DNA of 64,000 nucleotides, taken from assembly GCA_030068145.1 (NCBI GenBank), contig JAPJBO010000006.1:186001-250000 (forward strand), read 5' to 3'. Position 1 is the stretch's first letter. Each line of letters begins with the position of its first letter. Below the pieces are notes generated by a model. That model worked only from the letters and a program-made list of their open reading frames with translations. It had not been told where the DNA came from and ran no database searches. Both the position numbers and the translations under genes were made by a program. Origin of the DNA: Diplonema papillatum. Lineage: Eukaryota > Euglenozoa > Diplonemea > Diplonemida > Diplonemidae. Shown one piece after another: positions 24,056 to 56,985 of the stretch.

Positions 24056-24690
24056 TCAGCACGTGCCCAGGAACCAAGAGACGAAAGCCGAGGAGGCGTG
24101 GAACCCCCCAATCCGATCTCTCAGGAGGAGTCCGGAACCGGGAAAAACCGTACACCCTCGCGTGTGCTTGTCCGCGCGCTGCACGTCTGTGGGCACCCAG
24201 ACAACGTCGATGATGAGGCCCGCAGATTCCACGATCTTGAAAAACAGGCACAGGACTTCGTTTGCCCAGAAATTCTTGCTGTGCCCCTTCTTCAGAGCGA
24301 ATACAGCTGCTTGGTTATCAACCTTCAGGACGAGAAGAGACCCCGGAGCCTCTAGAGATGCGAACCAGACCGCCTGCGTCGCAGCCAGCAGCTCCTTCAG
24401 GTATATATGGACCGACGGAACCCCCTGATAGGCGAGCTCCGGTCGTGTCTCGAGAACCACTGCCCACTCGCTGTCCGAAGCGTCAGACCAAGCCACTAAA
24501 CGACGCCGGTTCTGTCGACCTCTGTTTCCCATTCGTTCCTTGACAGGTCCGCGAGCACCGACCGCAGATCATATAGGGCCGAAGGGGGTACGTCGTACGT
24601 GTCATCCCATGACCACGTGCCGCCCCCCAAAAGCGATGCCGCCCGGCGCAGAAAAGCCATCGCCGAACGCGAAAGTTCGGAAAACAGCAA
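24056..24690 (-). pseudogene. relic of YR-retrotransposon RT connection and RNase H
   Basis: In minus orientation a first frame (24690-24496) reads AMAFLRRAASLLGGGTWSW and VPPSALYDLRSVLADL, matching the region after the polymerase in the complete element at 27709. A second frame (24532-24056) carries an RNase H domain: AWSDASDSEW, KELLAATQAV, LKVDNQAAVFALKKGHSKN and WVPTDVQRADKHTRG, with the acidic residues still present. A frameshift separates the two. No recombinase or gag lies next to it. It is a divergent, dead fragment of the same superfamily as the complete element. Confidence 0.85.
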
Positions 24691-26296: not shown

Positions 26297-26780
26297 TTGT
26301 GGACACCGGAGGAGGTGGCGGCAGAAATGGCGCGCCTCGATGTCGATTACGACACGGGCCTGGAGGAAGACGAAGAAGATACGGAGGACAGTGCACAGGA
26401 GGACGAAACGCCGATAGCCGGTGGTGTGGAGGACTCGCATAGAGCCGCCTCAGCAGGCCGAGGCACCGGTTTGCGGCCCCCTGGTGTCCCGTCCCGTTTC
26501 CCGGTCGCGCTCACCCCCCATCACGCCCCCTCCGGTTGCCGACACCCTCATCGCCCTCATCGAGCGGATGGAGAAGGAGAGGAAGGCCGAGATGGCCGAG
26601 CTGCGGGCTGAGATAGCCCAGCTGAAGAAGGCGCAGCCAGCGGCTTCGTCTGGTCGCAGATGGCCGGAAACTCAACGCACTTATGAAGAAGCCCCCGGCC
26701 ATGCTCCTTCCCGGCATCGACGATGTTGTGAGCAGGTTCCTCGCGTCGAAGTTTGTAGCGCAGGCGGATGCTTTGAGCTA
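26297..26780 (+). pseudogene. relic of YR-retrotransposon gag fused to start of RT
   Basis: An acidic stretch (EVAAEMARLDVDYDTGLEED) and a coiled coil (ALIERMEKERKAEMAELRAE) resemble a gag. Immediately after, in another frame, is ADGRKLNALMKKPPAMLLPG followed by DDVVSRFLASKFVAQADALS. This matches the RT of the complete element just before polymerase motif A (CDGRKLNAVMPRPPPMLLPS). The recombinase and the RT N-terminus are absent. The frame ends at a stop at about 26775, where orientation flips: the next RT segment lies on the minus strand. Confidence 0.75.
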
Positions 26781-26783
26781 GTT

Positions 26784-27330
26784 TCACCAGTTCCCCTCGA
26801 GAAAACAGAGACGTCGCCTGGTCGAGAACAAGAAGCAAACCACGCCGCCGAACACAGCAAAAACCTGCCGGGGTGTCGCACGCCCGCTCATGACCGGCGC
26901 GAGGGCTTCGCCCCCTAGAAACTTTTTCACCCACGACGGCGCCGATCGGTAGCGAGAAGGCTCGGCCCCCAAATCGAACTCGAGACCGAGGGCCTCGAAA
27001 CGGCTGAGTGGGCGTCCGTACATGCTGTCGTGAGTATTCATGGCGGCGCCGACCAGCTGGCAGCGGTGTTGAAAACGCCGATAGCGCCTCTCGGCTTCCT
27101 CGTATGAGGTGCCAATCACAAAAAAGTTGTCGACCCAGCACACACCTTCGGACTCCGGCAACAGGACACGCGCTGTCCGCTGGGCTATACAGGGGGCCCA
27201 GTTCCAGCCCATGCACATCACAGAGAGCTGAACCTTCGTAAATCGACCCCTTGGGCCAGACAGGTTCATGCCGAAGAAACGCGAGACCGACAAACCCCGA
27301 AAATCATTGTCGACTGGAAAAGTGCCTCGC
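26784..27330 (-). pseudogene. inverted relic of the same RT, polymerase motifs A to thumb
   Basis: In minus orientation the frame reads FRGLSVSRFFGMNLSGPRG, then QLSVMCMGWNWAPCIAQR (motif B region), then CWVDNFFVIGTSYEEAERRY (motif C), SRFEALGLEFDLGAEPSRY, and ends in VFGGVVCFLFSTRRR. It takes up the RT where the plus-strand fragment at 26649-26780 stops, so an inversion breakpoint falls inside motif A. Motif C is VDN, as in the complete element. Confidence 0.85.
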
Positions 27331-27708
27331 AGGCTCATCTGATTGTCACGGTGAGCGTTTGTTGCAGTAGAGTGATTGTCAGGCCTTCGACTACCCTGAG
27401 CAACGCACTGTGCACACAGTCGGTGTCTACGTAACAGCAGATGGGTCGCGCTGCGGGCGCGGCTCATGGGTGAACGTCGTTGTGGCCGCAGAAGGGGGTC
27501 GTGCCGTGTCGGCGGGTGTTCGCCGCTTCTTCTCACGTCTTTTGCGGTGCCCTCGCCGAGCTTTATTGGCCGTGTGAGCAACCATTAAAGCACAGAAACT
27601 GCACTACTACCTTGACGTTTTTTCACAAAATTTCGTCGTCTTGTTGCGTTAGTGGGGAGTCATTTGCAAGCAAATGAGTACCACACTATTTCAAGATCTT
27701 TTTTTTTT

Positions 27709-27914
27709 ACATAAGCGCCAGCTTGAAAGGAAATGCTCGACGATGCTGCCCGACAAAGAACAGAAGGGATCCCAAGTGCTGTAACTACCGAACCACGTGT
27801 TGAACGGACGTGAGGTCATGCGGGTCTACCCCTACACGACAAATCACACAAACACAACAGGTCAAAAAATCCTGAGTGAGAAAACAACACACGGTGGTGT
27901 AAGCGAAGAACAAA
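27709..27914 (+). repeat. split direct repeat A1
   Basis: 206 bp starting acataagcgccagcttgaaa and ending with the 20-bp A/B core. One difference from A2. It carries the leader upstream of gag and ends six bases before the first likely gag ATG (27920). Confidence 0.93.
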
Positions 27915-27919
27915 AAGGG

Positions 27920-29371
27920 ATGAAGTGGAGTAGGGAGGCCGCGGTGGAGTGGGTGAAGCAGGCTACGGGGCTCCAAGTTCCGTCCGCTTTCCATTTTCGT
28001 CCGGACAATGGTCGACTGCGGCCGATTATCCGGTTGGCGGGGGAGGCCGGCGCTTCCGCGGACGCGTACCTGAGGTCCCTGCTAGGGGCCCTGGGGGGCG
28101 AGCAGCCGCCGAGCGGGACGGCGCAGTGGGTGTTGGCTTGGTTGGCATGCGCGTCCGCGCCCACGGCCACCCGTGCTGACTTCGAGGAACTGGTCCGGTC
28201 GGTGTCGCCGGACCGCGAAGACCCCTCCCCTCGACTGCCTGGCCGCTCCGCCGACGCCTCGCACTCAGACTCGGCGGATTACGCCGCCATCTCCGCCGCC
28301 GCGGCCACAGCGGCGGCCCGCGCCTCATCAACTGCCGCCACTTCTGCTGCTGCTGCCGCGGCCGACCCCTCCGCCGCCTCGTCTTCCGCTGCTGCTCCGC
28401 GCACCCCCTCGGGGATTCCGCTCCCGGGAACACCGGACGGAGACGAAGAGGTCGCCCGGGCCCTGCAGGTCGACGTGCAGGACACGCCCGCGAGGCGGGT
28501 GACGTTTGCGGAACGCCCGGACGACATCCGGCGCCTGGAGGGCCAGGTGGAGCGCCTCACCGCGATGGTGCTGGAGCTCGTGGAACGCTCCTCGCCCCCA
28601 GCCCCTCAGCGCCCATCTGTCCAGCGCAGCATGGAAGTGCCGCCCCCGCCTCCCCTCGTCGATGCCTCTCGCGTCCCGTTCGGGTCGCATCACGCGGGGG
28701 CAGGCCATGTTCCGGCGCCCTTCTCTGCCCCCCAGCCGCCGGCTCCCGCCCAACCGGTCCAGGAGAACCCATTCGCGGGGCAACATTTCTCGGCACCCTC
28801 CCAGACGGAGGTTTTTCAGCAGGACCCGCTCGACGCGCTGGAGCGCGGGTCCGTTCAATCCCAACCAGCGCTGATCACCCCGGGCCCCGGGCTCCTCGAC
28901 CCCCGTGTGTGGCTGTCCTACGGGCAGGTCGAGAAGTCGCTGCTCCTCGTCCACATCCGCGATATTTTCGCGGAAGTCCTCAACGGGTCGCAGACCCTGG
29001 CGAACGACGGCCAGCACCTCCTTCACCACCTCTCGTGCATCCTGCATCTGATGGACGACTCCTCCGACCCAGAGGGGATGGTGCAGCTCGCCGAGAGCAC
29101 CTTGCACCGCCTAGTGGTACTCAAAACAGGCCTCAAGGCGGGCTGGTCCGTTGCGGCGGACCTCCAGAAGGCGTACCACGAGGAGGACGTGGTGCCCGCC
29201 TTTCTCCGCCGGGGGTACCAGGCGATGCGGAAGGCGGACGAGCAGCCAACGAAGCCCGCCCGGTCTCGGGGGTTACCACAGACGAGGCGCGCTGCCCCTC
29301 CCCACAGCGCAGCCCCCCTTCCGCAGGCGGACGGGGCGCGCACCGGCAACAGGAGGAAGGGGTCTCGGTGA
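27920..29371 (+). CDS. gag-like protein of the YR retrotransposon
   Basis: 483 residues from the ATG at 27920, just after repeat A1; an in-frame start at 27797 inside A1 would add 41 residues. It begins MKWSREAAVEWVKQATGLQV. A low-complexity Ala/Ser/Pro region (about 120-215) is followed by a short coiled coil (DIRRLEGQVERLTAMVLELVE) and a conserved-looking helical C-terminal part (WLSYGQVEKSLLLVHIRDIF, GMVQLAESTLHRLVVLK). No CCHC zinc knuckle is present. Position and make-up suggest the nucleic-acid-packaging protein, but no domain proves it. The stop overlaps the start of the recombinase frame by GTGA. Confidence 0.75.
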   Translation: MKWSREAAVEWVKQATGLQVPSAFHFRPDNGRLRPIIRLAGEAGASADAYLRSLLGALGGEQPPSGTAQWVLAWLACASAPTATRADFEELVRSVSPDREDPSPRLPGRSADASHSDSADYAAISAAAATAAARASSTAATSAAAAAADPSAASSSAAAPRTPSGIPLPGTPDGDEEVARALQVDVQDTPARRVTFAERPDDIRRLEGQVERLTAMVLELVERSSPPAPQRPSVQRSMEVPPPPPLVDASRVPFGSHHAGAGHVPAPFSAPQPPAPAQPVQENPFAGQHFSAPSQTEVFQQDPLDALERGSVQSQPALITPGPGLLDPRVWLSYGQVEKSLLLVHIRDIFAEVLNGSQTLANDGQHLLHHLSCILHLMDDSSDPEGMVQLAESTLHRLVVLKTGLKAGWSVAADLQKAYHEEDVVPAFLRRGYQAMRKADEQPTKPARSRGLPQTRRAAPPHSAAPLPQADGARTGNRRKGSR

Positions 29372-30321
29372 GCGTCCTGGACCGCTTCCCCCCACCTCCG
29401 CGCGCGACATCCGGTGGTCGGGCGCTTTTGTTGGAGCCTCCGCTGTCGAACGGCGAGCGGGAGAGACTTGTTGGCAAGGCCAACTCGTACATCGGCGACG
29501 CGCTGGCGTTGTCGACGCGACGCGGCGTTCACTCGGTGTACCGGCGCTTCCTAGAGTTCCGCCATCACTGGGAGACGCGATTCGGTACGCCGTTGGACGT
29601 TCCGACGGCGGTCGTTCTGTTTGTGACGCGTCTCCTGTCGCGCGAACTGAACCCCATCTCTCCGTCCACCGCGATACAGTACGTGGTCAACGTACAATCC
29701 GCGGAGAAGCGTCTCGGTCGACCGATCGAGAGTCAGCTGGTTCGAGACTTCGTCAGGTCCCTGAAGAGGGCGGGTGCTTTGCGGCCGACCAAGCAGGCAG
29801 TTCCGGCCACAAAGGAGGATGTGGAGCGCGCCGTGCGCCTCGAATCAGATCCCGTGATGCGTCTGGCCATCACCCTCGCGTGGCAGGGGGCAGCCCGGGT
29901 GGACGATGTCCTTACCAGAGAGGCCCGAAACGTGACCGAGAGCTCCGATTTCTGGTCGGTGAACTGGGTCGGCTCGAAATCGGACCCTTTCCGTTTGGGA
30001 CAGGTGACCGGCGTGGTCCTTCCACCCCCGCAGGATCAGACTCTCCGATCCCTCCTCCGCTCCACGCGCCCGGGTCAACGTATTTTCGCGGGCGTCACGT
30101 TCCGCCGCGTCGTGGCGGCGCTGAAGAGGGCCAACCAGGCTCTGACGGGGCATTCCCTGCGCCGGGGGGCGCTGTTTCGCCTCCTGAGGATGGGCGTCGA
30201 CCTCGACACGCTCCGGAGAGTGTCCCGCCACTCGACCCAGGATGCCCTTGTGCGCTACCTCCCGGAGGCGGAGGTACCCCTCGTCCGGGAGACGGCAGGC
30301 GCGTCGGCAACCCTCCTGTGA
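29368..30321 (+). CDS. tyrosine recombinase of the YR retrotransposon
   Basis: 317 residues if read from the GTG at 29368, which overlaps the gag stop; no usable in-frame ATG precedes the catalytic domain. The N-terminal helical core-binding part is HSVYRRFLEFRHHWETRFG. The catalytic set is complete: Arg177 in GAARVDDVL, His262-x2-Arg265 in GHSLRRGALF, His288 in RVSRHSTQDA and Tyr297 in VRYLPEAE. It would cut and rejoin the circular DNA intermediate at the split repeats. It lies in the -1 frame relative to gag, so expression needs reinitiation, frameshifting or a non-AUG start. A relic of a related recombinase is at 53640-54500. Confidence 0.92.
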   Translation: MSVLDRFPPPPRATSGGRALLLEPPLSNGERERLVGKANSYIGDALALSTRRGVHSVYRRFLEFRHHWETRFGTPLDVPTAVVLFVTRLLSRELNPISPSTAIQYVVNVQSAEKRLGRPIESQLVRDFVRSLKRAGALRPTKQAVPATKEDVERAVRLESDPVMRLAITLAWQGAARVDDVLTREARNVTESSDFWSVNWVGSKSDPFRLGQVTGVVLPPPQDQTLRSLLRSTRPGQRIFAGVTFRRVVAALKRANQALTGHSLRRGALFRLLRMGVDLDTLRRVSRHSTQDALVRYLPEAEVPLVRETAGASATLL

Positions 30322-32141
30322 GCCTCCCTTTGGAACCGGTTTTCCCATACAGGCCGCCGAAGAGAGCTCCTCGTAACCCCCTGTCCAAGTGCTATCCTGG
30401 ACCCGATGCTTTGTCGCAGGATGTACCCCCCCCGGCGTTTTTGGAAGCGATCCGGCACCATGGGGGCATCGGCGATGCCCCGCCGTCGGATTTTACGCCT
30501 TTCGTCACCGTCGCCTACGGGGGCGACCTCATCGTCAACGAGCTTGCCGCTCCTCCGGCGCAGCGCAGCTCGGAGGGGTATTTAGCGCCCATCACGTCCT
30601 CCTTCATGGATCTCGACAGGCTCCTTGCCATGGATACACACGGCCTACTCGGAGGCGTGTTGGACGTTATCAGGTCGCGTGAGTCTTTCGAGTCCGCGCT
30701 AGTCCGCGACGCCTCCTCTTGGCACTCAGAGGCCATAGCGCGCGGGACCTCGAGGCGGATGTTACACCACCTTCCGGACCTGCTGAAGTACGGTGTCGCG
30801 GAGGTAGCACACGAGCATCCGAGAGTCGTGCTCCCCGCATTCACGGTTCCCAAGAAGAGCGGGGGGGAGAGGTTCGTATGCGATGGACGAAAGCTGAACG
30901 CTGTCATGCCCCGACCGCCTCCGATGCTCCTGCCCTCCATGCCCGACGTGATCGATCGGGTGCTAAGCTCGGCGGTCGTCTACCTGGCGGATGCGAAGAG
31001 CTACTTCTACCAGTTCGAACTGGATGAGGGCGTCCGCGGGTATTTCGGCATGAACCTTGCGGGCCCACGTGGGAGTTTCGTCAGAGCCCGTTTAAGGGCG
31101 ATGTGCATGGGCTGGAGCTGGGCTCCGGCGATAGCACAGAGAGCTTCTCGCGTCATCCTGCCGGAGACTGACGGTCTCCCGTGGGTTGACAATTTCATCA
31201 TCGTGGGCGATTCTTTGGCCGAGGCGGAAGAGAAGTTCACACGTTTCGCCCGGCGATGTCGTGAGGTGAACTGCGTCCTCAACGACGACGAAGGCCAGTA
31301 CGGGATCCCCCTCACGCAGTTCGACCTTTTGGGGCTGCGGTTCGATCTGGCCAGCAGCCCACCTCGGTACAGTATGGCCACTGCTTGGGTTGAAAAGCTG
31401 CTGCGGTCTTCCGAACTCGCCGTTTTCCGGGGCGGAGCCGTTTCTCCCCGGGCGTTCTACAGGCTGTTCGGCGCTCTGGTGTGGTTCGCGTACACAACGC
31501 GTTTTCCCTTGGCGTACGCCCGGTGCGCTCTTTCGTTCGTGCAGAGACTCTCCTCACGACTGTCGGTGGGAGGTCTGCAGGCATGGGACGTGCCGGTGAA
31601 CGTTCCGGCGTCGACAGCCCGCGAAGTTGAAAGCCTCACGGCGACCATCGGGGAGAACCGGTGGGTCACGCGAGTGGGCACGCGCGGGGGGCAGTCGATC
31701 CGACTATGGTCCGACGCCTCCTCAAAAGAATGGGCGGCGCTGCTCGAGGGTGAGCCCGAACGGGTGTCACAGGGCATTTTCTTTGGTCACTTCGCAGAAA
31801 AGCACATTTTTTTGAAAGAGCTTTTCGCAGTGTTGAAAGGCCTCGAGCTAGCCGTTAGAGCACACCGAGGAGTGTCCGTAGAGCTGATGGTAGACAACCT
31901 ACCGGCGGTTCATTGCCTGAACAAGGGCCACTCAAAGAATTACGCGGCGAACATAATACTGTCGCGCATTTTTGATCTGGCCCGAGAGTACGGACTTGAG
32001 CTCACGGCTACGTGGGTGCCGACCCACGAACAGAGGGCGGACGAGTACACCCGGGGTACCCAGGCGAAAGAGAACGCGACGCCTGGAGGGTGGTTACCGA
32101 AGGAGGAAGATCTCTCGCCTCCTCCGGATCTGACTACTTGA
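30318..32141 (+). CDS. reverse transcriptase-RNase H of the YR retrotransposon
   Basis: 607 residues if read from the GTG at 30318, overlapping the recombinase stop; the first in-frame ATG is 30606. Polymerase motif A is YLADAKSYFYQFEL (Asp225), motif B is MCMGWSWAPAIAQR and motif C is LPWVDNFIIVG, with Asp291 followed by Asn292 where most RTs have a second Asp. RNase H follows: LWSDASSKEW (Asp466), LKELFAVLKGLE, LMVDNLPAVHCLNKGHSKN and WVPTHEQRADEYTRG. No methyltransferase or integrase follows. The frame is -1 relative to the recombinase. RNase H motif spacing matches the relic at 24056. Confidence 0.92.
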   Translation: MSLPLEPVFPYRPPKRAPRNPLSKCYPGPDALSQDVPPPAFLEAIRHHGGIGDAPPSDFTPFVTVAYGGDLIVNELAAPPAQRSSEGYLAPITSSFMDLDRLLAMDTHGLLGGVLDVIRSRESFESALVRDASSWHSEAIARGTSRRMLHHLPDLLKYGVAEVAHEHPRVVLPAFTVPKKSGGERFVCDGRKLNAVMPRPPPMLLPSMPDVIDRVLSSAVVYLADAKSYFYQFELDEGVRGYFGMNLAGPRGSFVRARLRAMCMGWSWAPAIAQRASRVILPETDGLPWVDNFIIVGDSLAEAEEKFTRFARRCREVNCVLNDDEGQYGIPLTQFDLLGLRFDLASSPPRYSMATAWVEKLLRSSELAVFRGGAVSPRAFYRLFGALVWFAYTTRFPLAYARCALSFVQRLSSRLSVGGLQAWDVPVNVPASTAREVESLTATIGENRWVTRVGTRGGQSIRLWSDASSKEWAALLEGEPERVSQGIFFGHFAEKHIFLKELFAVLKGLELAVRAHRGVSVELMVDNLPAVHCLNKGHSKNYAANIILSRIFDLAREYGLELTATWVPTHEQRADEYTRGTQAKENATPGGWLPKEEDLSPPPDLTT

Positions 32142-32173
32142 AAGGCCACTGCGTGGTCCCTGGGGGTCCTGGA

Positions 32174-32280
32174 TGGTGTAAGCGAAGAACAAATCAGATT
32201 GTGTTTGTATTGTATTTGCCCCTTACCTCTATATTTCCCCCCTTCCATTCGGAGTCGAAGCAGCTACGTCGAGTATTTTT
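32174..32280 (+). repeat. split direct repeat B1
   Basis: 107 bp beginning with the 20-bp A/B core and ending gtcgagtattttt, directly joined to A2. Differs from B2 only inside the core. Confidence 0.92.
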
Positions 32281-32486
32281 ACATAAGCGCCAGCTTGAAA
32301 GGAAATGCTCGACGATGCTGCCCGACAAAGAACAGAAGGGATCCCAAGTGCTGTAACTACCGAACCACGTGTTGAACGGACGTGAGGTCATGCGGGTCTA
32401 CCCCTACACGACAAATCACACAAACACAACAGGTCAAAAAATCCTGAGTGAGAAAACAACACACGGTGGTGTAAGCGAAAAACAAA
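32281..32486 (+). repeat. split direct repeat A2
   Basis: 206 bp, identical to A1 except for one base in the shared core. Its last 20 bases are also the first 20 of B2. Confidence 0.92.
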
Positions 32487-32573
32487 TCAGATTGTGTTTG
32501 TATTGTATTTGCCCCTTACCTCTATATTTCCCCCCTTCCATTCGGAGTCGAAGCAGCTACGTCGAGTATTTTT
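32467..32573 (+). repeat. split direct repeat B2 and right end of the element
   Basis: 107-bp copy of B1. It ends in a T run that continues into flanking tttttttcaagatgtg. The left flank of A1 (tcaagatctttttttttac) is also a T run next to caagat, so the target looks like a T-rich site. Confidence 0.9.
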
Positions 32574-32654
32574 TTTTTTTCAAGATGTGAAAAAAAATGG
32601 GCAAATCCAACAACTTCTGAAAAGGAGTTTGTCAATCCATGTTTCATGTTTGGT

Positions 32655-32845
32655 AATAATAAAAAAAGTTCCGGGTAGCCGAACAGTAGCAGGATCAAAT
32701 AGTGATAGTGTTTTTAGACAACCAGACGTGTGTCTGAATAACAGTTATTATTCGATTTGTCGAATAATAAAAAAAGTTCCGGGTAGCCGAACAGTAGCAG
32801 GATCAAATAGTGGTAGTGTTTTTAGACAACCAGACGTGTGTCTAA
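32655..32845. repeat. 108-bp tandem duplication (1.8 copies)
   Basis: aataataaaaaaagttccgg starts at 32655 and again at 32763; both continue through gccgaacagtagcaggatca and agacaaccagacgtgtgtct. The second copy is cut off by the TIR element starting at about 32848. Confidence 0.9.
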
Positions 32846-32847
32846 AT

Positions 32848-35369
32848 ACACGGTGCACTAGTCAAGGACTTTTTTGACTTTGACTAGTGGTTTTACTAGT
32901 CAAAATTTTGACTCGTAAAATGACTAGTGCCACTAGTAAAAATGACTAGTGCACTAGTAAAAATGACTAGTGATTTAGACAAAATCCACCTAACCTGGAC
33001 CCAAGTCCTGGGTGTTTTGAGAGTTTTCGAGGGGTTCCACGGCACTACCGTGACCACCGGTGCCCAGACACCACAAACCACCTGGGCAACCCCAGTTTTC
33101 GCGAGACAGGCCGAGTTGCGAGGGTTTTGGTTGGTTTCTTGGGAAAGTCCCTGGCTTAGCAAACATAGTGCAAACGACAGTGCTATCCCTGCACGGTGAG
33201 GTCAGAGACATGTCGTGACAGGTTTCAGACACTGGAATAATGCGGGCTTCCGACCACATTCAAACTCTGGTCCGTAGATTCGGTTTGTCGTTCATAGCGC
33301 TCCTATCGCCTTGGCATCGCACCGGACACAGTGCATTTACAGTAGTGGGTTCCCTAAAACCCACGATTCTTGCCGAGCTTCCCAACATGAATGTGCAACA
33401 GGTGCTGGCTTTGTCCGCCTGTGAACTGTTTGCATGCAAGGCTTTGTGTTGCGCACATTCCACAAATAGTGTCGTTGCTCACTGCTATGTGCTCCGCTTT
33501 CTAGTGTTGGAGGCACTCTCCCATTGCGTGCTTCCTCTTTCACGCCGCCGCGGAAAACCAGTCTTGTAGCCTGTGGCGCGCGCGTTGTGTGCCAGTCAAC
33601 ACGTCGTGGTGCTTTGTCCAGGCATTTCGAATGCCTGGAAGTCACGTTTCTTTGTAGTTTCGGGACGTGCTAACGACCATTGAGCCCACCGATCAACTGC
33701 TCAAAGCTTTCGTCGGGTGGGACACCAGCAGGTTCTGGTTTCTACTCGTCGGGTCTACCGCACAGTAAGGTGAATCGCGTAGCCGGTGTACTATTTGTGA
33801 AAGCAGCTTCTTTCGCATCTTCGGTTGTTCACAACGACAATAAAAATCACCGCCTCGGATTAGCTTGAATTCACAACGCACTGTCTATCGGGCATTGAGA
33901 GCTACTAGTAGTAAGTGCGGAAGAGCATGAGGCAGGCAAGCTGTATAACGCTCCCAGTAGGCAACAAGTTCCCAGAAACTCCCCGTCCTCAGCTGTGGTG
34001 CTGCTTGCCTTCATGGCACTTGCACTTTCTAGAACTCAATACTCAGCCCGGTTCCTGTGGGGGAAGAGTCGGGGTGGCCCACCAAAAAAGCGACCACAGT
34101 TCTGCATGTTCAGCCGCAAAACACAAACCGACGAGTAATCGTAACTTATTCCTGCAGAACTGGCTTTGTTGAATGATGCTCGTGACAGACAACTGACCCC
34201 CAGCTTTCGTCTATCGCACAGTAAGGAATCGCGTTGGGAACCGCATTCGGAAAAATATTGGACCGGAACTTCTTTGGACCGGAATCTTTTTGGACTTTTT
34301 AGAGTTAAAGTTTTGGGCTTTTGGAGGTTCTGAAAGTTTTGGACTTTTCCCTGGGGTTTTCAGTTTTTGGCGGTATTTTGAAGTCTGACCGAAGCAGCTT
34401 TTGCACTGATTCATGTTTCCGTTACACCAATGATGGGACCGGCAGATTGTGCGAACATTCCAAAGCTTCCCGAATTCCGGGCCGCAAACGCGTCCAAATT
34501 GGTTCAGGTTACCTTTATTTCTGTTCGTCCTTAAAACTCGTGGTTGCATGATCATGACTATGGGCGTAGCCTGGGTCGCGTAGACAAGCAGCTCGGGTGA
34601 GCATGGCGGGGCGACTCATGAGATTGCCCCCGTCGCCGACCACGTGCCGGAACACGACGTCCGGGACTGGCTATACTGATCAACTCCTTGAACGCCAGCA
34701 GCCCGCTGTCGTCGGCATCCACCGTCAAAAACGCGCGTGACCGCCACTCGGCGGCCAGGACGTCGCCTTCACTCAGCGACGCTCGCTTCACTGCGAGCTC
34801 GCCGAGGTCGAGTCCTTCCGCGGGCATGCCGCCGGCCCTGCTCAGTATGGCCCGGCGACGCCGCGTGCCGACTACGCTCAGCGACTCGCCACCTTCTGCG
34901 TCTGGCTAAAGTAGCGACCTCCAAGTTGTAGGGCGCTGTTAACGGACTTGGGCGCGCCCTTGACTGTAGGCACCACATGTATCATATCTTATCGTATTCT
35001 TGGATTCTAAACTTCCCTGTGGGCGTGAACCCTACTGTAAAATATTTGGACCGGAACTTTTTTGGACTTTTGGGGGTTTTGAAAAGTACTTCGACTTTTT
35101 CCCGGTCCAACATTATTCCGAACACGGTTGTAAGCGCAACGGTAGGGTACAGTTGTGCCGTGGGACCCTCTGAAATCTACAAAATAGCCCAGATTTCGGT
35201 TCGGAACAGGTGGATTTCTACTAGGACACTAGTCATTTTGACTTGTGCACTAGTCATTTTTACTAGTGTTTTTACTAGTGCACTAGTCATTTTTACTAGT
35301 GCACTAGTCATGCTTTTTCACTAGTAAAATGACTAGTCAAAACACCTTTTTCACTTTTACTAGTGCACC
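32848..35369. mobile_element. non-coding TIR element with CACTAGT-rich ends, copy 1
   Basis: The left end starts acacggtgcactagtcaagg; the right end finishes acttttactagtgcaccgtg. Both ends are crowded with palindromic ACTAGTGCACTAGT units spaced by short A or T runs (left 32848-32985, right 35225-35369). The interior has no transposase-like frame. AAATA precedes CACGGTG and follows CACCGTG, a possible 5-bp target duplication, although the right flank is also part of a dispersed repeat (compare 61979). Compared with copy 2 it has about 365 extra bases at 33342-33707. Confidence 0.8.
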
Positions 35370-45126: not shown

Positions 45127-47222
45127 TCAGAGAGAATGGTACAACAGGTACCGGTCCTTGTAGTCGCCGCTTTCAATTTTCATGAGCTGCTCGTGGCTGC
45201 CCTGTTCAATGATGACGCCGCGGTCAAGAACCGTGATGACGTCCGCGTTTTCGATGGTGGTGAGCTTGTGCGCCACTGTGATGGTCGTCATCGACTGCGT
45301 CTCGATGACGTGATCCAGCGCACGCTGCACGAGCCTTTCGCTCGCGTTATCCAGCGCGCTGGTGGCTTCGTCGAGAAGCAGGAACTTCGGCTTCTTGACG
45401 ACGGCTCGCGCTATGGCAACCCTCTGCTTCTGGCCCCCTGAAAGCATCGAGCCGCGGGCGCCTACTTTAGTGTTGTATCCCTGCGGCAGCCGCGTTATGT
45501 CGTCGGCGATATGCGCAAGCTCGCAAGCCTCGATCACCTCTTCGAGCGTCGCGTTCGGCTTTCCGAGCCGAACGTTTTCGAGCACCGACATGTCGAATAG
45601 CACAGGTTCCTGCGACACCACTCCGACCATCGATCTCCAGTACCCCAAGCTCAGCTCCGCGATGTCTATCCCGTCCACGGTCACCGAACCACTCCCGCAC
45701 TGCGACAGGCTGTACAGCCGTTCGAGGAGCTGCAGCGTCGTCGACTTCCCGGAGCCGGTGGAGCCGATGAGGCCGATTTGCGTGCCCTGGCGGCCGCCGG
45801 CGGGCGCGATTTTCAGGGAGAAGCGCTTCAGCACGTCGACATTCGGCCGGGCCGGGTACGCGAAGGTCACGTCCGAGAACTCGACGACGCCGCGGGTCAC
45901 GCCGTCGGACCTCCCGCGCTCGCTCATTTGATCGAGGCTCGGCTTCGTGTCGAGGGTTTCGAAGACCACGGCTGCCGCTTCCTTCGCGTTCGCGGCAGAT
46001 GCCTGCATGCCCGCCGCTTCACCGATGCCGAGGGACGCCATGACCACTTGGATGACCGCGGCCTGGATCGACGAGAAGTCGTCAGTCCCATCGGAGATCA
46101 GCTTGCCCCCGTACAAGAACCCGATTCCGAAAACCGCGAAGATCGCGAACTGCCCCATGCCGAAGGTCAGCGCGTAGGCGAATGCGTTTCGGTACTGCTT
46201 CTTCAACGCGGCGCTGCTGGCCGCTGCGAACGAAGCGACCGCGTCTGCTTGCGTGTTCAAACTGACGACCGTTTTCACATTCGCGATCGACTCCCGAGCG
46301 ACGACGCTGGTGGACGAGCCTTTCGAACCGAACCCCGATGCGGCGATCGCGACGGAAAGCCAGCCCGTCACTATCAATACCGGCACCGCTGTCAGCACCA
46401 TGAGCGTGACCCTCCAGCTCCTCACGAACGCCATCGTGAACCCCAAGCCCAGGGCGACCAGCACCCGCAACAACATGCCGATGTTCAGCCCGAACAACCC
46501 GTGGATGACCTGCGCCTTGCCGCTGAGCACTGTCGTGAGCTCGCCGGTCTCGTGCCCGGGCGCGTCGAAGAACGCCACGTCTTGCGACAAATAGTGCGAA
46601 AAAAGCATCTTCCGGATCCTACACGTCAGCTGCGTGCCGACGTATCCAAACCCTCCATTCAGCAACACGTGCCCAAACCACGCACCGACGGCGACGAAAA
46701 GCATGTAGACGGCGTACTTATCGATGTCTGAGCGGTCGGTGACTTTGTAGTTCATCGAGCCGAGGATGTCGAGGGCCTCTGAAAAAACCAGGGCGAACAC
46801 AGGGTAGACCGCCCCGGTCAGCAGGGCGCCGGCGATGCCGGGTACCAGCCACGAGTTCCAGGGAGCCGCCAGGCGGGCGATCCGGAGGAAGCTGGTCTTG
46901 TTTTTGATCTTCTCTTCCATCTGCTTCTTCTGCTCTTCTTCGAGCTCGTCAGCGGTCTTCGTTTGCACGGGGGCCTCCAAGTCCGCGGCTGCGCTCTGCA
47001 CAGCTTCCCCGCTGGCATCATCAGCGCGACTGTCCGTCGTTCGGTTCTGCGAATTCCAAAGCTTCGCGTAGTATCCCTGTGTTGAGGTTTTGCGGTCGTC
47101 CTTCCCGAAGGCTCCGAGAACCTTGAGAGAGAGAGAGAGAGAGTTGTCACGCCTTAGCAGTCCCAGGGCCTCTCCCCTCCCACCTATATGTGTTCTCGCT
47201 GTCATCGCTACCGCGCTGACAT

Positions 47223-47264
<42 letters not shown>

Positions 47265-50200
47265 ACAGAAAACAAGGCAAAGGGTGCGGGGCTCCACCGT
47301 CAAGTGGGCCCCACCGCAGTGGGCCAGGCTAGATTCGGGGTGGCTCTCTGGGAGCGACAGGGGCGGGGGTTGTCATGCCTTAGCAGTCCCAGGGCCTACC
47401 TACATGTGATCTCGTCGTCACTGCTACCGCGCTGACCTTACAAGAGTTTGCATTCTGCAGCCATTATTTCAGCCTATACGAGCATCCGACCAGTTATTCT
47501 GGATTTCCCGAGCATTCTAGGACCACCTGAGTGGTAGGTTGCGAGTTTTGGGTTGCTGGGGGCCCCCCTTTTTCCGGCAAAAACAGGGGTTTTTCAGGGT
47601 CCCCGCGGTTTGGCGACACGTTTTGTGGGCGTCGTACTCCGCCCGCCAGGCACGGGGACTGCGGGTTGGGTTTTTGATGTTTTTCCCGAAAGAACTGCCA
47701 AGGAATTGCCTTGCGGGGGTGATTTTGCCTTCTTTCCGCATTCTGCAGCCGCTATTTTAGCCTAAACGAGCGTCTGACCACTTTTGCATTTTCGGAGCGT
47801 TTTACGGCCACCTGAGTGGTTCACTCCAAGCGCCGATTCACAAATAAAAATGGCCGCTTGGTAAAGGAACTCTCTTTGGGTGTAAGATCTTCCCCGCCGG
47901 TGGAGGGGGTTTCTCGTATCTACGAGAAAATTGAAAAGGAACTAGCCCAACACACCCCTAGCCCCATTTGTTTCCCGTACGATGCTCCCAGTTGAAAACC
48001 TTAGAAAATACTCGAGGGGCTGCCTTGTGCTTACTTCGAAGGAGGCAAGAGGGAGAGAAACAATACAACTACAAAATGGGTCTTTTTTGTTGAACGCTTA
48101 CGCACACCACTGAACCCAGATTTACCTGTGTTTCGTGTGGGCTACAGCACATTTACCTCCTTTGATCTTTCGGGCCGGGGGCACAACTCCCCGCACCCCC
48201 CCAGTTGTTTTTAGAGTAAATAACCCCGACCTGCGTCTGATTCGGACTGGGGGTAAACCCTTAGTTTGTATGGTTGGGGTGCGGTTATTTGCACCACTGT
48301 TGGGAGGGGGTTAGGGGCTATTTTCACTGCTGGCACCCGGACCGCCGCCTGGGGGCGTGCCCCCGGACCCCCCCCAGAGTCGTGCGCGTGGGAGGCCACC
48401 ATAATACTCTCCTCCTCGCCCGTCTCGCTGCTCCGTACTCGCTGCTCTCGTCCTTGCTGCTGCGTGATGCAAGATTGATGGTGCGTAACAACCGTAGAAA
48501 GGTCATGCAGAGATTCTCGTGTGTATGCCACGAACTTCTTCGTGACGCCTCAGGACACTGGACTTGAATTTTATTTCCCTTCACTAAGATGGCTGCCGTG
48601 ACGAACCTAGCTTCTTCGTATCACATGCGGAGAGAGAGAGAGAGTGGAGAGAACGACTGAGCGCCTGGGGGCTGATCGCTGAGGGAAGTCGAATCAACAT
48701 CGAAGTGCTGCACACATTCATGGCGGAAGTCATGCAAGAGAGACGACGGCTGGAGAGAGAAGGAAGAGACCGGGCAGTCGGCCACCCCTGGAGACAACTG
48801 CACCCTGACGACTGCCCCCCGCGCCGGCTGAATTTCGAAGCGATCGCTGGACCGGGGACCTTCACGGCGGTCGCAGGAGAGAGGTGGTTCCGGGCGCTGC
48901 AGTATTGGCTGGATGGGATGTGCTGGTCGGTAGCGGGTGACGTCTCGACGGCAGAGCTCGCAGTAGACTTCGAAGTGTACACCGGGCTCGATCTACCGGG
49001 CAGTTTAGTGGCGACGACAGGTGGGACGCCGCTGTGTATCCGTGCGAGAATGTTGGCGCGGATGCTGAAAACGATCGGGGAAGCGCTTGAGCGGAAAGGG
49101 GTGGGGCCGCTTCTGCCGGGTAGAAAGCTGGAGAAGATAGGTTCATTGAGAACGGTAGGGGCCCCCCCATGCCTCACGGGCTACGAGATGAGGCCAATTT
49201 TCCGCGGCGGCGAGGAGACGATGGGAATCTTGGAGACGCAGCTGAAGGCGAGCCGGCATGCGTTCACCGGCGAGGCGTGGGGGATGGACCTTTTCCCGAC
49301 GTACGGAAGAGAAAGGGCGGAGCGTGCGGCGAGATGGGCGGCCTTCGATGACGCTACGGAGAAGAAGAGAGGCAAGAAGTCGGCTGTCGTCGGAGGGGAT
49401 CCGTGGCTCGTGCCGGAAGGGATTCCCCGACACGAAAAGTGGGGTGAGCGGGTGTGCCCCGGGCACCAAAAGGTGAAGTGCGACGTGTGCAAGCGCCGGG
49501 GCAAGTCGGTGGCGTGGTGCTGCCAGGCCCATCACAGGGAGGGTGATGGCCTAGCCGTAAAAATGTGTGCCGAGCACCGGATGACGCAGTGCGCCACGTG
49601 TAAGACGACAGCGGAGTGCTGTCGCAACCATCACCACCGATGCCTCGACCATGGCATGCCGACGTGCGACGGCTGTAAGAAACACGCCGACCTGAGGAGT
49701 AGGAGACCCGGGCACTGCTGCAGGAAAGGGCACCACCGGGCGGCCGTGGCGAGAGGTGAAGAAACAACAACGGAGAAGAGGAAGGCGGAGCCGGAGGGTC
49801 CCGCGCCAGCGCCGAGACAGGCGAAACGTGAGAACGTGGTGCTCGTTCTGCCGGAAGCAGAGGAAGACGAGCGAGAACCCGCAACATCAACGCCGACATC
49901 AGCAGCGAAGGTCGGGAAGACGGCGCCAACGCCAGCGAAGAAGCGGCAATCAGACTCCGCGGCGGAGCCGGTACCGAAAAGACGCAAAGGACGCGTCGAT
50001 GCGCCACGACCATCGCCCAGGCGCCGAGAAGAAGCAGATATCGACGCGCAACCGATGAACCTCGACGAGCAATCGAAGAAGAAGCGAAGCACCAAACGCG
50101 CGCCTGAGCGCAACGATCAAGACGAGCTAAAGAGGCGAAAGCATGACACTTCACGTGCGAAGAGATAACCGCGCAGTCGGCGATGCAGATTATCGCCACA

Positions 50201-53200: not shown

Positions 53201-56200
53201 GGACTCGGCGTGCGTCGGGGCCCGTGAGGAAGCACCGGGCAGCAGTTAAAGTTCGGGTACGTACCCACACCCCGATTAGCAGATAAGTTCGGGCGATGCA
53301 AAGTTTGAGTGCAAAGTTCGGGCGTCGGTAAGTTCGAGTGACGATAATGCTCTCCAGGTGTGAAGGCCGACGCCGGTCACTCTGCCATTCCGATCGCAAT
53401 TTTGGCGGGAAAAAAAGTTACGTCCGCACAAGTCTCCAACCACCAAAAACAACACACTTTTTTTCAGTGTACCACTCATTCCACGAAAAAGTGTCACAGA
53501 TTTCGACTTTTTTCGGGCTTCTGCCGAAAACTTTCGTCTGCACGTCCGAAAATGGCCGGTTTCGAGATTTTGAGGACACGATTGAATCCATTTCCGAACA
53601 TCTGGCCCCAGTGAGGGGTGACGCCCGGGTGTCTCAGCTTTATGGAGGAGGCCAGTTTCCGATAGGAGATGTGTGCCGGGAACAAATTCTCGTGTCCCTG
53701 CCGTTCTCTCCGCGTTAACACGGCTTTTAGCCTCGGTCTCCGGGTCCAAATGGACTCCTGTCACCCTGCCTTGCCCGTGGGGGTCGGACTTTGTGACCTC
53801 CCATAGCACTGAGCTCCCCCCTCCGTCTTCAACCGTATTACGTCGCTCGCTCTTGCCGCCCCGCACCACATGAATGCCAACGCGATGCTCACCCATGCGT
53901 CCTCCGCTGCATGGATCATCTCCCACGCTTGCTGCTTTGTTGCCGGCAGCGCCTGTTTCGCCGAAACAAAAAAAAAGTCCCCCACTATTTGTAGGTGGGG
54001 AGTCACGTTTTCGAAACGCCGAAGGACCATCACGATGTTGTTTAGGTATTGTAAACTTCTTTTCTGAGGAAGGAGATCCACAGAACGATCGCCTCCTCGT
54101 CGCTCACTGGGCCCTCCGCGCGTTGCCATTCCATCTTGAACGCCTGGAACCTCTCGTGAGTCCGTTGGAGGGTACTCCAGTAACTCCCCGACAGCGCGTG
54201 TTTTAGAGCCCTTTGAGCCTCTTTTACGATAGCCTGGCGCTTCTTTCTCTCCATTTCCTTCGGAAGCCCGGCCCGTCTTTTTCGCTCTCGTCTTTTGTGT
54301 TCCGTAAAACGGGAACGCTCGAGGGGATGCTTGCAGTCACTTCGCTCCTGCCTTCCTTCCGGCCCCGCTCCCCTTTCCCGAAGTCCGGGGATTGTAGGGC
54401 TCGTATCTGGGGTTGCGGCACCAGTGATCTTCGCGTGTTTGCCAACTTTCCATCGTGGAGCCTCGAGGACACGGAAAGCCAGAGGTGGGAGAATCATGGG
54501 GATGGACGCTCACGCTTTCGGTAAGCAACCTGCGTGAGGTATACCTGGATCACAGTCTGGTACTATTTAGTCAGTGAGTATCAATCTACACAAAAAAAAA
54601 AAAACCCCTTATTGCGATGCGAAGGCGTACCTCATTGGCGAGCAACTCTGCGTGGCGTCCCGTTTCGACGATCTTTCCTCCTTCATCATCGTTTTCACTG
54701 CTGGGTGGCTGCATGACGACAATCCTGTCAGCGTGCATGACAGTTTGCAGCCGGTGGGCTATCACAATGGTCGTGACTTTCCCATTGTCAGAGTTCATGA
54801 TCGACTGCAGAGCTTTCTGGACTTTGACTTCAGACTCCCTGTCAAGGGCTGAAGTCGCTTCGTCGAGGATTAGAATCTTGGGACGCTTGATGATGGCACG
54901 CGCGATGGCGATACGCTGCTTCTGCCCACCAGAAAGTTGGCAACCGCCTTCGCCAACCTTTGTCTCGTAGGCGTCAGGCCAGCGTTCGATAACGCTGTGG
55001 ATGTGAGCTTGCTCGCAGGCTTCGACCACTTCTTCACGGGTCGCCTCCTTGCGACCCATCCGGATGTTGTCGAACACGGTACCACTGAAGAGCACGGGTT
55101 CTTGAGTGACCATTCCGATGTTGTCTCGCCACCAGCCGATGTCGAGTGACCCCAGACGCTCGCCGTCTACGGTAATGGCCCCGTTCTTCTGGTACTCGAC
55201 GGGCTGTTCCACGTTCGTCCGGGTTCTCTTGTACATGTCGATCTTGTACCGTCCGAAGGCCAGGTCTACCTCGACGAAGGGCCGTCCAGCCGTCTCCGCC
55301 TCGCTCAGCAGAGCGCTCACGCGATCCGGGAACGCAAACTCCAGGTCCCCCGCAGGCTCCTCTTCAAACTCGGCGAAAGGGTCGGAGTTCGACTTGGTCG
55401 CGGAGCCCTTCGGTCCGCAGCACGCGGAGAGCCCGGGTTTCGCCGCGCGGCGCTCGATCCAGTACCACTTGCCGCCGTCCCACCGGATGGGGCCGTCGGA
55501 CCCCTGCACCGTGCGGCTCAGCGCCCCTGTGCCAGCGAGGCGTACAGCCATCGTCTTGCTGCAGGTTGCGGCCAGGCTGATGGGGAGGGTGACGTCGACG
55601 GTTTGCGGGCATCCCGCCCCGCCGCCGCCCATGCGCAGCTTTTCGAGGAGGACGGCGTTCGCTTCGTACGGGAGGGGTACGAAGCTGCCGCCGGGGCCGC
55701 GGACCCCGAAGTAACCGGCCGCGGGCTCGTAGAACCGCTGGATCAACGACACCAGGGACGACTTGCCGCAGCCCGAGAGCCCGACGAAGGCGACGGTTTC
55801 CCCGGCGGGGATTTCGAGGGAAAACTCGCGGATGACCGGGCGGTGCATCCTCGTCGGGTAACGGAAGGTGACGCGGTTGAAGCGGATGTTGGCCTTCAAC
55901 TCGGGCAGTTTCCGCGTCCCCTGCTCCACCCGGGGCTCGCGGTCGATCACGCGGAAGATGCTGTGCGCGGCCTGCTGCGCCTGCGCGAAGGACGTGATGG
56001 GCGGGATGATCTGTCCGAAGGAGACCGACGCGAACAGAACAGCGATGAACGCCGTCAGCACCTCGGAGATGGTGCTCAGCTCCCAGTCGACGAGGAAGCT
56101 CGAGTACCAGAGCCCCAGAGCGTAGGTGCAGAACATGCAAAAAAAGGCGGAGCCGATGCCGGCCCCGCTGACGAACCCCGCGAACCGCGAGGCTGCGCAG

Positions 56201-56985
56201 GCGCCGTCAATCTCGGCGTGGTACGCCCCTTCGAACCGGCGGTGGGCGGACAGGGAGTGGACGGTGCGCACGGACGACAGCACCTCCTCCGCGATCGCCC
56301 CTGCGTTGGCATACGCGGCGCTGTTCTTCTTCCCCATCGCCGTCAACGCGTAGAACATGGCCACGGCGCTGAGTCCAGTCAACGGGGCCATCGCAAGGAG
56401 AACCAGCGTGAGCCGCCAGCACTTCACGAAACTGATGGAGAACGACGCGATGATCGTGAACAAGTGGTAGAAAAAGAACGAAGCGCGCTCGGACAAGCCC
56501 TGTTTGATGATTTCCGTGTTTCCGTGGAGGCGGGACGTGATGGAACCCGTCTTGTGCAGGTCAAACCAGGCAGACTCTTGACGAAGAATGGCGTCGAAGT
56601 AGGCTGTCTTGATCCTGTGCACCTGATTGTCGCTCGACAATGAGAAGCACGCGGACATTATGAAGCCGGCTGCAAACACTAAACCTCCGGCGATGAACAT
56701 CCACTCGCCCAAGTCCCCAACACGGTCGCCGATGCTGTCGGTATTCAAGCTGTTTCCTTCCTCAACCAACTCACCGAACAGCAAGCTGAAGATGGGGAGT
56801 GCCATTCCGACCCCCATGGCCGCGACGATGCCGAGCATCAGAAGGGCGAAATCGTACCCTTTGGCGAATTTGAAGAGCTCTGAAAAAGACACGCTCTTCC
56901 CGACTTCCTCCTCCAACGGCACCGAATTCAGCGCGTCGAGCAGGACGTCGTCCGCCGCCGGCTGTGCGTCGGGCTTCGCTTCCAT
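45127..56985 (-). CDS. full-length ABCB (MDR/P-glycoprotein-type) ABC transporter, two exons
   Basis: Exon 1 is 56985-54631 (785 codons), exon 2 is 47076-45127 (649 codons plus stop); joined in phase 0 they give 1,434 residues. Exon 1: MEAKPDAQPA, six-helix TMD1, then NBD1 with Walker A GLSGCGKSS (about residue 401), Q-loop VTQEPVLFSG, signature LSGGQKQR, Walker B ILILDEATSALD and switch His in IAHRL. Exon 2: linker, TMD2, then NBD2 with GSTGSGKST (about 1222), VSQEPVLFD, LSGGQKQR, FLLLDEATSALD and VAHKL. Both sites look catalytically complete, so it should be an ATP-driven exporter of lipophilic compounds; substrate unknown. NBD1 carries about 160 extra residues between Walker A and VDGERLGSLD. 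Across the junction HAELLANE joins GYYAKLWNSQ, as the family requires. The frame running upstream of exon 2 (SLSLSL) is intron. Confidence 0.92.
48004..48170. repeat. dispersed repeat, copy in ABCB intron
   Basis: Shares caatacaactacaaa, cactgaacccagatt, cctgtgtttcgtgtgggct and agcacatttacctcctttga with 57259-57420; a third, more diverged copy is at 63807-63940. No coding meaning is visible. Confidence 0.85.
48720..50168 (+). CDS. Cys/His-rich putative zinc-binding protein, probably mobile-element-derived
   Basis: 482 residues from the ATG at 48720; the frame is open further upstream (to about 48590, through a GA repeat), so the true start is uncertain. The N-terminal 230 residues match nothing I know (MAEVMQERRRLEREGRD; LQYWLDGMCWSVAGDV). 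Residues about 245-345 contain three copies of one pattern: C-x2-H-x4/5-C-x2-C-x(6-16)-C-C-x2-H-H, seen as CPGHQKVKCDVC, CAEHRMTQCATC and CLDHGMPTCDGC, each followed by CC..HH. The C-terminal 130 residues are basic, with nuclear-localisation-like runs (KKKRSTKR, KRRKGR). It lies antisense inside the ABCB intron, and its 5' flank (ggctgccgtgacgaacctag) is repeated at 53124. An ORF1-like nucleic-acid-binding role in a retroelement is inference. Confidence 0.6.
   Translation: MAEVMQERRRLEREGRDRAVGHPWRQLHPDDCPPRRLNFEAIAGPGTFTAVAGERWFRALQYWLDGMCWSVAGDVSTAELAVDFEVYTGLDLPGSLVATTGGTPLCIRARMLARMLKTIGEALERKGVGPLLPGRKLEKIGSLRTVGAPPCLTGYEMRPIFRGGEETMGILETQLKASRHAFTGEAWGMDLFPTYGRERAERAARWAAFDDATEKKRGKKSAVVGGDPWLVPEGIPRHEKWGERVCPGHQKVKCDVCKRRGKSVAWCCQAHHREGDGLAVKMCAEHRMTQCATCKTTAECCRNHHHRCLDHGMPTCDGCKKHADLRSRRPGHCCRKGHHRAAVARGEETTTEKRKAEPEGPAPAPRQAKRENVVLVLPEAEEDEREPATSTPTSAAKVGKTAPTPAKKRQSDSAAEPVPKRRKGRVDAPRPSPRRREEADIDAQPMNLDEQSKKKRSTKRAPERNDQDELKRRKHDTSRAKR
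50422..51290 (+). repeat. six tandem copies of a roughly 155-bp zinc-finger-coding unit
   Basis: Units begin ggatggaggg at 50422, 50559, 50714, 50857, 51011 and 51166. Each codes for a C-x2-C...H-x3-H finger: FCIPCRSGFNFKHARQHQKK followed by TPHREKF, then a linker RLNRLLKDEPDAWRMEGD. Copies 1 and 2 share a frame (50417-50692). Later copies are shifted relative to one another because 155 and 143 are not multiples of three, so no single long polyprotein is readable. The array looks like a decaying or frame-scrambled fusion. Confidence 0.8.
51024..52145 (+). pseudogene. zinc-finger end fused to a non-LTR-type RT fragment
   Basis: The frame starts in the last finger copies and runs to a segment with LYADDDGVAVEARTFAALER (polymerase motif C, YADD at 51939) and ERWTENALMVLSKRKTKGVH, the motif D/E region of LINE-type RTs. 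The preceding fingers and palm are missing, and the protein stops soon after. I read it as a truncated relic. It shares plus orientation with the Cys/His ORF at 48720, so both may come from one retroelement family. Confidence 0.65.
52481..52790 (+). repeat. pair of 50-bp direct repeats
   Basis: accagcgac.gtcagcccgg followed by tgggttctcagaacc occurs at 52483-52530 and 52736-52785. The 250 bases between them include a cccgcccccggcatcccgac stretch typical of element ends, but no boundary is clear. Confidence 0.7.
53120..53190 (+). repeat. second copy of the 5' flank of the Cys/His ORF
   Basis: ggctgccgtgacgaacctag, then cttcttcgtatcacatgcgg and agaga, matches 48590-48640 almost exactly and is likewise preceded by ttttatttcccttc. 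Here it is not followed by the Cys/His ORF. Confidence 0.85.
53640..54500 (-). pseudogene. relic of a YR-retrotransposon tyrosine recombinase
   Basis: In minus orientation three frames join up: 54497-54042 gives the N-terminal part (GSYWSTLQRTHERFQAFKME, EEAIVLWISFLRKEV); 54129-53761 gives QYLNNIVMVLRRFENVTPHL and the first catalytic Arg in MWCGAARASDVIRLK; 53926 onward gives WEVTKSDPHGQGRVTGVHLD, matching KSDPFRLGQVTGVVLPP of the complete element. At least two frameshifts are present, and the HxxR and Tyr parts are not clear. It lies in the ABCB intron in the sense of the gene. Confidence 0.8.

Follow-up and report, generated by a model that had tools for sequence, protein, structure and literature searches.

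Diplonema papillatum is a marine single-celled diplonemid, and the diplonemids are the sister group of the kinetoplastids, which are the hosts of the retrotransposons VIPER and TATE. As described in two papers, VIPER and TATE have the order gag, tyrosine recombinase (YR), reverse transcriptase and RNase H (RT/RH), with direct repeats arranged as A1 ... B1A2B2 and no target duplication (PMC6681497, PMC12278014). For D. papillatum, more than 60 open reading frames (ORFs) have been reported to resemble DNA transposon proteins, including TATE, MULE and Helitron, in a genome paper that defers rigorous identification of transposable elements (PMC10161547) and that has been interpreted elsewhere as indicating low transposable-element diversity (PMC12278014). 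Here we analyze a 64,000-nt stretch of D. papillatum contig JAPJBO010000006.1 (the window), which contains, at 27709-32573, a new element that shares the known VIPER-type plan and comes with testable mechanistic clues. It is very probably a young YR retrotransposon of VIPER-type architecture in a diplonemid, probably autonomous, that inserts as a circle. No earlier description of it was found among the literature matches listed, the scope of which excluded subscription journals. Coordinates are positions in the whole window unless a locus or contig label precedes them; the genome searched was a draft assembly of 271 Mb in 2910 contigs, in which L-numbers denote fetched genomic loci and C-numbers contigs. 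The parts of the element are as follows, I being the internal sequence between A1 and B1.

27709-32573 (+): complete YR retrotransposon, A1-gag-YR-RT/RH-B1-A2-B2, recognized by its repeats and three open frames
27699..27708 (+): 10-T tract to the left of the insertion point (putatively target plus circle core)
27709..27914 (+): repeat A1, 206 nt, the 5' leader of the element; nearly every other copy has the same boundary
27895..27914 (+): first copy of the 20-nt A/B overlap, TGGTGTAAGCGAAGAACAAA
27920..29371 (+): gag-like ORF1, ATG at 27920, five bases after A1, stop at 29371; dN/dS about 0.2 (unshared part)
28909..30321 (+): ORF2 open frame, -1 to ORF1, with the YR from about 29431; Pfam PF00589; dN/dS 0.11
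29151..32141 (+): ORF3 open frame, -1 to ORF2, with RT and RNase H within 30321-32138; RVT_1 below cut-off, profile match; dN/dS 0.17-0.22
32174..32280 (+): repeat B1, 107 nt, starting with the second overlap copy (32174-32193) and ending in TTTTT
32276..32280 (+): TTTTT core of the internal B1-A2 junction, the same as the presumed circle junction, from junction matches and empty-site accounting
32281..32486 (+): repeat A2
32467..32573 (+): repeat B2, its opening 20 nt being the third overlap copy, with A at 32480
32569..32580 (+): 12-T tract to the right of the insertion point, the first five T counted within B2

The initial annotation had placed two 206-bp A repeats and two 107-bp B repeats here in split order, with one differing base in total, and all of this was found as claimed. 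The 20-nt overlap of A2 and B2 (32467-32486) reads TGGTGTAAGCGAA[G/A]AACAAA, and the same sequence closes A1 and opens B1. The sole repeat difference in the window copy is the A at 32480, where A1 and B1 have G; because this position sits inside the A2/B2 overlap, the single difference counts once per repeat pair. The A is private to the window copy among 22 full copies, and it also occurs in a few other AB units (e.g. C1:374108).

The 40 genomic places that were scored all match A1 plus internal sequence; they are 39 fetched loci and the window copy, and these form our copy set. The whole A1-I-B1A2B2 order is present in 22, which excludes chance; 10 others are A-I-B copies, 3 break off within A2 or just past it, and 5 lack a recognized B end of their own. 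Pairwise divergence among twelve young full copies is 0.021-0.206%, 0.097% on average. Within the 22 full copies, A1 and A2 show zero mismatches in 10 (three of these with small gaps) and at most one in 16, while B1 and B2 show zero in 16. The lengths of all three frames are identical to those of the window in 13 of 25 long copies, the window included. Judged from its copies, the element is real, young and recently multiplied, and a divergence of 0.1% together with intact frames makes it likely to be still mobile. The prediction of a complete young YR retrotransposon with split direct repeats has thus held, given 22 of 40 copies in the same order, many of them near-identical, and the existence of empty sites.

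Three intact ORFs with full recombinase and RNase H residues had also been noted, and every one of these was recovered. By eye, the YR has R (GAARV), HxxR (GHSLRR), H (SRHS) and Y (VRYLP), and the RNase H has D-E-D-D in SDAS, KELF, MVDN and RADEY. In Pfam, the YR frame matches Phage_integrase (PF00589; E 3.3e-6, 27.4 bits against a cut-off of 27.1) and the RT frame matches RVT_1 under its cut-off (E 2.6e-5, 24.5 bits against 29.6); a profile match to retroviral and Ty3 RT was also obtained for ORF3. Pfam gave zero matches for gag, no convincing match for RNase H, no integrase and no methyltransferase domain, and ORF3 stops shortly after RNase H. With YR and RT/RH in one element and a DDE integrase not found, the element falls among the YR retrotransposons (order DIRS). 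A second family, at L039 1575-6001, shows A1-gag-YR-RT/RH-B1-A2 up to the end of the fetched stretch; it is 46% (RT/RH) and 50% (YR) identical to the window element and also has -1/-1 frames, a TTTTT junction and the RT motif WVDN. This motif was seen 29 times in fetched DNA, mostly in copies of one family, and a more distant RT, at L054, has WYDD.

Because the frames run -1/-1, frameshifting or coupled re-initiation is suggested as the way in which YR and RT/RH are made. A stop-start signal at GTGAGC, which occurs at both stops in the window, was considered and rejected, as the second stop is TAA in a 95% identical subfamily (L044-L046) and neither site is the same in the second family. The reading frames themselves look constrained. 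A search with the YR met no stop in any of 120 scored genomic matches (the best 120 of 1681 candidates), of which 41 have 98-100% identity, 32 have 93%, 42 have 72-73% and 5 have 87-91%. Comparison with the 95% subfamily gives dN/dS ratios of about 0.2 (unshared part of gag), 0.11 (YR) and 0.17-0.22 (RT/RH), with dS values of 0.11, 0.32 and 0.02, respectively; these ratios indicate that all three proteins are under purifying selection. In the gag/ORF2 overlap, changed codons with and without an amino-acid change number 17 and 16 in the gag frame and 25 and 10 in the ORF2 frame, so that the overlap seems to serve gag more than YR. Differences from the subfamily drop from 22 in 30109-30308 to 2 in 30309-30508. 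The switch at about 30309, between dS 0.32 in YR and 0.02 in RT/RH, marks L044-L046 as a mosaic at the YR/RT border, in which modules have been exchanged.

Insertion is associated with T tracts. Each of the 31 two-ended copies is flanked by T on both sides, two or more closing the left flank and one or more opening the right. For 29 distinct two-ended insertions (L021 and L022 were set aside as sharing the L009 site), the inferred target tract has a median of 8 T and at least 7 T in 20, while 0.95% of window positions are inside or at the edge of A/T runs of six or more. A search for empty sites, which had been proposed alongside the search for full-length copies, yielded relatives for two insertions. 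At L017, three empty relatives read GTGTTTTGGTG (TTTT), and the filled site has 4 T on the left and 5 on the right; at L014, two empty relatives read ATGTTCCCG (TT), and the filled site has 4 and 3. Compared with these related empty sites, each locus is longer by the element and five T, and no target sequence is duplicated. Five is also the T count of the B1-A2 junction, and the gain fits recombination of a circle into T tracts via a B-TTTTT-A junction. At L039 and L043 the T gain agrees in kind, the exact count being off. The three product types in the genome (A-I-B-A-B, A-I-B and AB) start with T(n)-ACATAAG and end with GAGTA-T(n), and since they share both ends, one recombination core can serve all of them. 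Also in favor, L009 shares the flanks of L021 and L022 but lacks A2B2.

We know of no experimental settlement of priming and circle closure in split-repeat YR retrotransposons. In the mechanism that we propose, an mRNA would span from inside A1 to inside B2 and RT/RH would make cDNA from it. The internal B1-TTTTT-A2 block would template the missing ends and close a circle with a B-TTTTT-A junction, whose T core the YR would then recombine with a T tract in the genome. Solo AB units could come from YR or homologous recombination between cores, or directly from reverse transcription.

A number of points weigh against this mechanism. Neither a circle nor an RNA nor a new insertion was observed. 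Most polymerases have two Asp in RT motif C; here the motif is WVDN, not xxDD. No ATG precedes the catalytic domain in the YR frame, and none explains where the YR starts. The empty sites are related repeats elsewhere, not alleles, and the left flank of L017 carries one extra GT relative to all of its empty relatives. L037 is a poor fit, its total of 28 T pointing to a longer target allele or to slippage. The target T numbers presume a five-T core and can be inflated by slippage, and at 3 of the 29 sites the target would be one T. The flanks of L009 match those of L021 and L022 at just 98.7% (left) and 93.4% (right, mostly one 12-nt gap), and the flanks of L021 and L022 are identical, so that in a draft assembly the two are possibly one locus. 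Finally, AB-A-I-B insertions would also be expected from a circle that has two identical B-T5-A junctions, and this form was seen in none of the 40 copies, with no same-strand B end within 500 nt before A1. A junction probe gave 40 scored places, of which 38 are A1-I places without B in front; two of these 38 (C2594 and C1085) match from query position 49, so that up to 12 nt of B are possible. The remaining two are a tandem AB at C5 and, at C75, I-B-T5-A-I, a head-to-tail joint.

Some of these loci have further peculiarities. L021 and L022 have an extra ~440-460 nt inside the element, representing either one locus assembled twice or a duplicated region. The L037 copy is at a T tract within sequence matching repeats of the second family, and nested families are seen in the L037 flanks, L040 and L032. 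The L039 copy is found within a third kind of repeat, which also occurs at window positions 48058 and 57311; after element position 293 the right part of the copy and some target bases are missing, which looks like deletion after insertion.

The A2-B2 joint has 3,390 genomic matches at two or fewer mismatches and the B1-TTTTT-A2 junction has 132 (98 exact), with zero for the reversed control in each case, from which it follows that most AB units are solo. Ten were fetched, and nine align over at least 240 nt to the window A2B2 at 81-98% identity, a spread that points to mixed ages; the tenth, L059, has no match of at least 240 nt and is left out of that range. T runs adjoin most of them, and a tandem AB-AB is present at L067. 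Landing of a circle beside an old AB unit was rejected as a general route to full copies, because A1 and A2 differ by at most one mismatch in 16 of 22 full copies, against 81-98% identity for solo AB units.

Nine of the 10 A-I-B copies have an internal deletion; nine keep a whole B, and L018 keeps just the last 15 B bases plus T. Eight of the 9 deleted copies keeping B have their right joint no more than 3 nt away from the left edge of the overlap that opens B, with 0-6 extra bases or a 5-nt microhomology; their left joints range between element positions 295 and about 4371. In the ninth, L018, the joint is within B. In these copies the left B edge thus acts as a favored and nearly fixed end. 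In L028 and L032 an A and a T tract come right after the break, and the joint may be the last base of B, although a single base is weak support. Large deletions within I, with other joints, are present in L036 and L043, and L042 has an inverted stretch.

One account of these products is that solo AB units are only recombination scars like solo LTRs and that ordinary repair of DNA breaks produced the cuts at the B edge, an account to which we give slightly less than an even chance. The comparison of L009 with L021 and L022 resembles loss of A2B2 at one site, the joints with 0-6 inserted bases or short homology resemble end joining, and the joints of L018 and perhaps of L028 and L032 show that the B edge is not the sole joint. 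Solo AB repeats in Cafeteria have been interpreted likewise in the account given of them (PMC8547959). However, random breaks would not place 8 of 9 right joints within 3 nt of the left B edge, so that one end looks defined, and AB joints exceed B1-A2 junctions about 26 to 1.

A tentative alternative, which we hold to be unlikely, is that reverse transcription is primed at the 20-nt sequence with which A ends and B begins. The site occurs three times (A1/I, I/B1 and A2/B2). Priming at the first, followed by an A1-to-A2 transfer, would give AB minicircles, priming at the second would give A-I-B circles, and priming at the third would give the full element; mispriming inside I would give deleted A-I(n)-B copies with their joint at the B edge. 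If this were true, recombination would no longer be the principal origin of the solo AB units, which number more than 3,200, and the unseen AB-A-I-B insertions might be accounted for. The overlap begins with TGG, as tRNA-primer-binding sites do, and the TGG is not kept in the second family (by eye). A search for a tRNA primer found the complement not followed by C at 123 places; the 10 that were fetched were all the element's own repeats, mostly AB units, and ARAGORN found no tRNA in these 10, which leaves a tRNA primer unsupported by the places read.

In structure the element is VIPER-like, its plan being compared by description. The predicted VIPER order, with YR before RT/RH, and the split direct repeats are both confirmed; the YR-first order is indeed VIPER-like, but it is not specific to VIPER, since a figure legend lists DIRS1 as GAG, YR, pol (PMC3266345). 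The element agrees with VIPER and TATE, as far as these are described, in the order gag, YR, RT/RH (also found in the second family) and in the A1 ... B1A2B2 direct repeats of several described copies (PMC6681497, PMC12278014). It also shares the lack of target duplication, seen here for two insertions against empty relatives, and a gag without a clear domain. The host differs, being a diplonemid and not a kinetoplastid, which is a taxonomic habit rather than a structural criterion, and TATE of L. braziliensis is reported in telomeric repeats whereas the present element is in T tracts (PMC6681497, PMC12278014). The counterpart of A2 plus B2 is, by description, SIRE, the short VIPER form of Trypanosoma cruzi (PMC6681497); here, in contrast, there are 3,390 A-B joints. 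The Ngaro elements described from Cafeteria burkhardae share the repeat plan and the solo AB repeats but have RT/RH before YR and are from another host group (PMC8547959). DIRS-1 is likewise a YR retrotransposon, for which circles have been modeled as inserting without duplication at a short and often T-rich junction, but it is described with inverted terminal repeats, internal complementary regions and a methyltransferase (PMC3266345).

Likeness of plan could also arise without close kinship. An independent Euglenozoan lineage, not sister to VIPER/TATE, in which module exchange led to the VIPER arrangement, seems rather unlikely to us. L044-L046, with near-identical RT/RH (dS 0.02), divergent YR (dS 0.32) and the change at about 30309, are the kind of exchange that such an origin calls for, and homoplasy of these structures is reported in one comparison (PMC4157794). 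On the other hand, descent is the simpler reading, given that the host belongs to the sister group of the known VIPER hosts. No RT or YR relatives were confirmed in the prokaryotic and viral contigs searched. Membership in Ngaro, PAT or DIRS instead of the VIPER type is improbable: A1-...-B1A2B2 repeats are common to Ngaro and PAT (PMC8547959, PMC4157794) and DIRS1 too has YR before pol (PMC3266345), but the Cafeteria Ngaro puts RT/RH before YR where the present element has YR first (PMC8547959), PAT and DIRS are defined in the source with a methyltransferase (PMC4157794), which Pfam did not find here and for which the end of ORF3 soon after RNase H leaves little sequence, and DIRS has inverted repeats in place of direct terminal ones. 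That assembly duplicated A and B can practically be dismissed even in a draft rich in repeats, as 22 of 40 copies share the order with flanks that differ except in L021/L022 and the second family shows the same order as far as its fetched stretch, ending in A2; neither of the outcomes named at the outset as fatal, a lack of other copies and repeat duplication by assembly, was encountered.

Further features were noted around the element. Just upstream are fragments of related YR-retrotransposon RT/RH genes at 26784-27581 (-), 26653-26793 (+) and 24152-24490 (-); the first reads WVDN and belongs to families with many long open frames (best 144 of 2832 candidates scored). Directly 3' of the element are two 86-bp direct repeats and short palindromic CTAGT repeats (32655-32848, 32883-32972). 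Farther away, the ORF at 48705-50168 (+) has repeated Cys/His-rich motifs and no Pfam match and is perhaps a LINE ORF1; a Cys/His-rich reading that looks alike by eye is present in L048 at 300-620, near a spliced leader. Long intronless ORFs at 45127-47280 (-) and 54586-56985 (-) resemble ABC half-transporters by eye. The spliced-leader search pattern, which we take to be the diplonemid leader, had 628 genomic matches and none for the reversed control. In all eight loci listed (L048-L055) the leader is directly joined to other sequence, and these are apparently retrocopies of trans-spliced mRNAs; the published number of leader genes for D. papillatum is 110, against the 628 matches here (PMC10161547).

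If the lineage proves to be common to both groups, the VIPER-plan architecture would predate the split of diplonemids and kinetoplastids. Near-identical copies, empty sites and deletion derivatives are all present in this genome, as are AB units by the thousand, and D. papillatum is reported to be haploid and open to gene replacement (PMC10161547). With these resources in such a host, the question of how split-repeat YR retrotransposons prime their reverse transcription and close their circles becomes testable.

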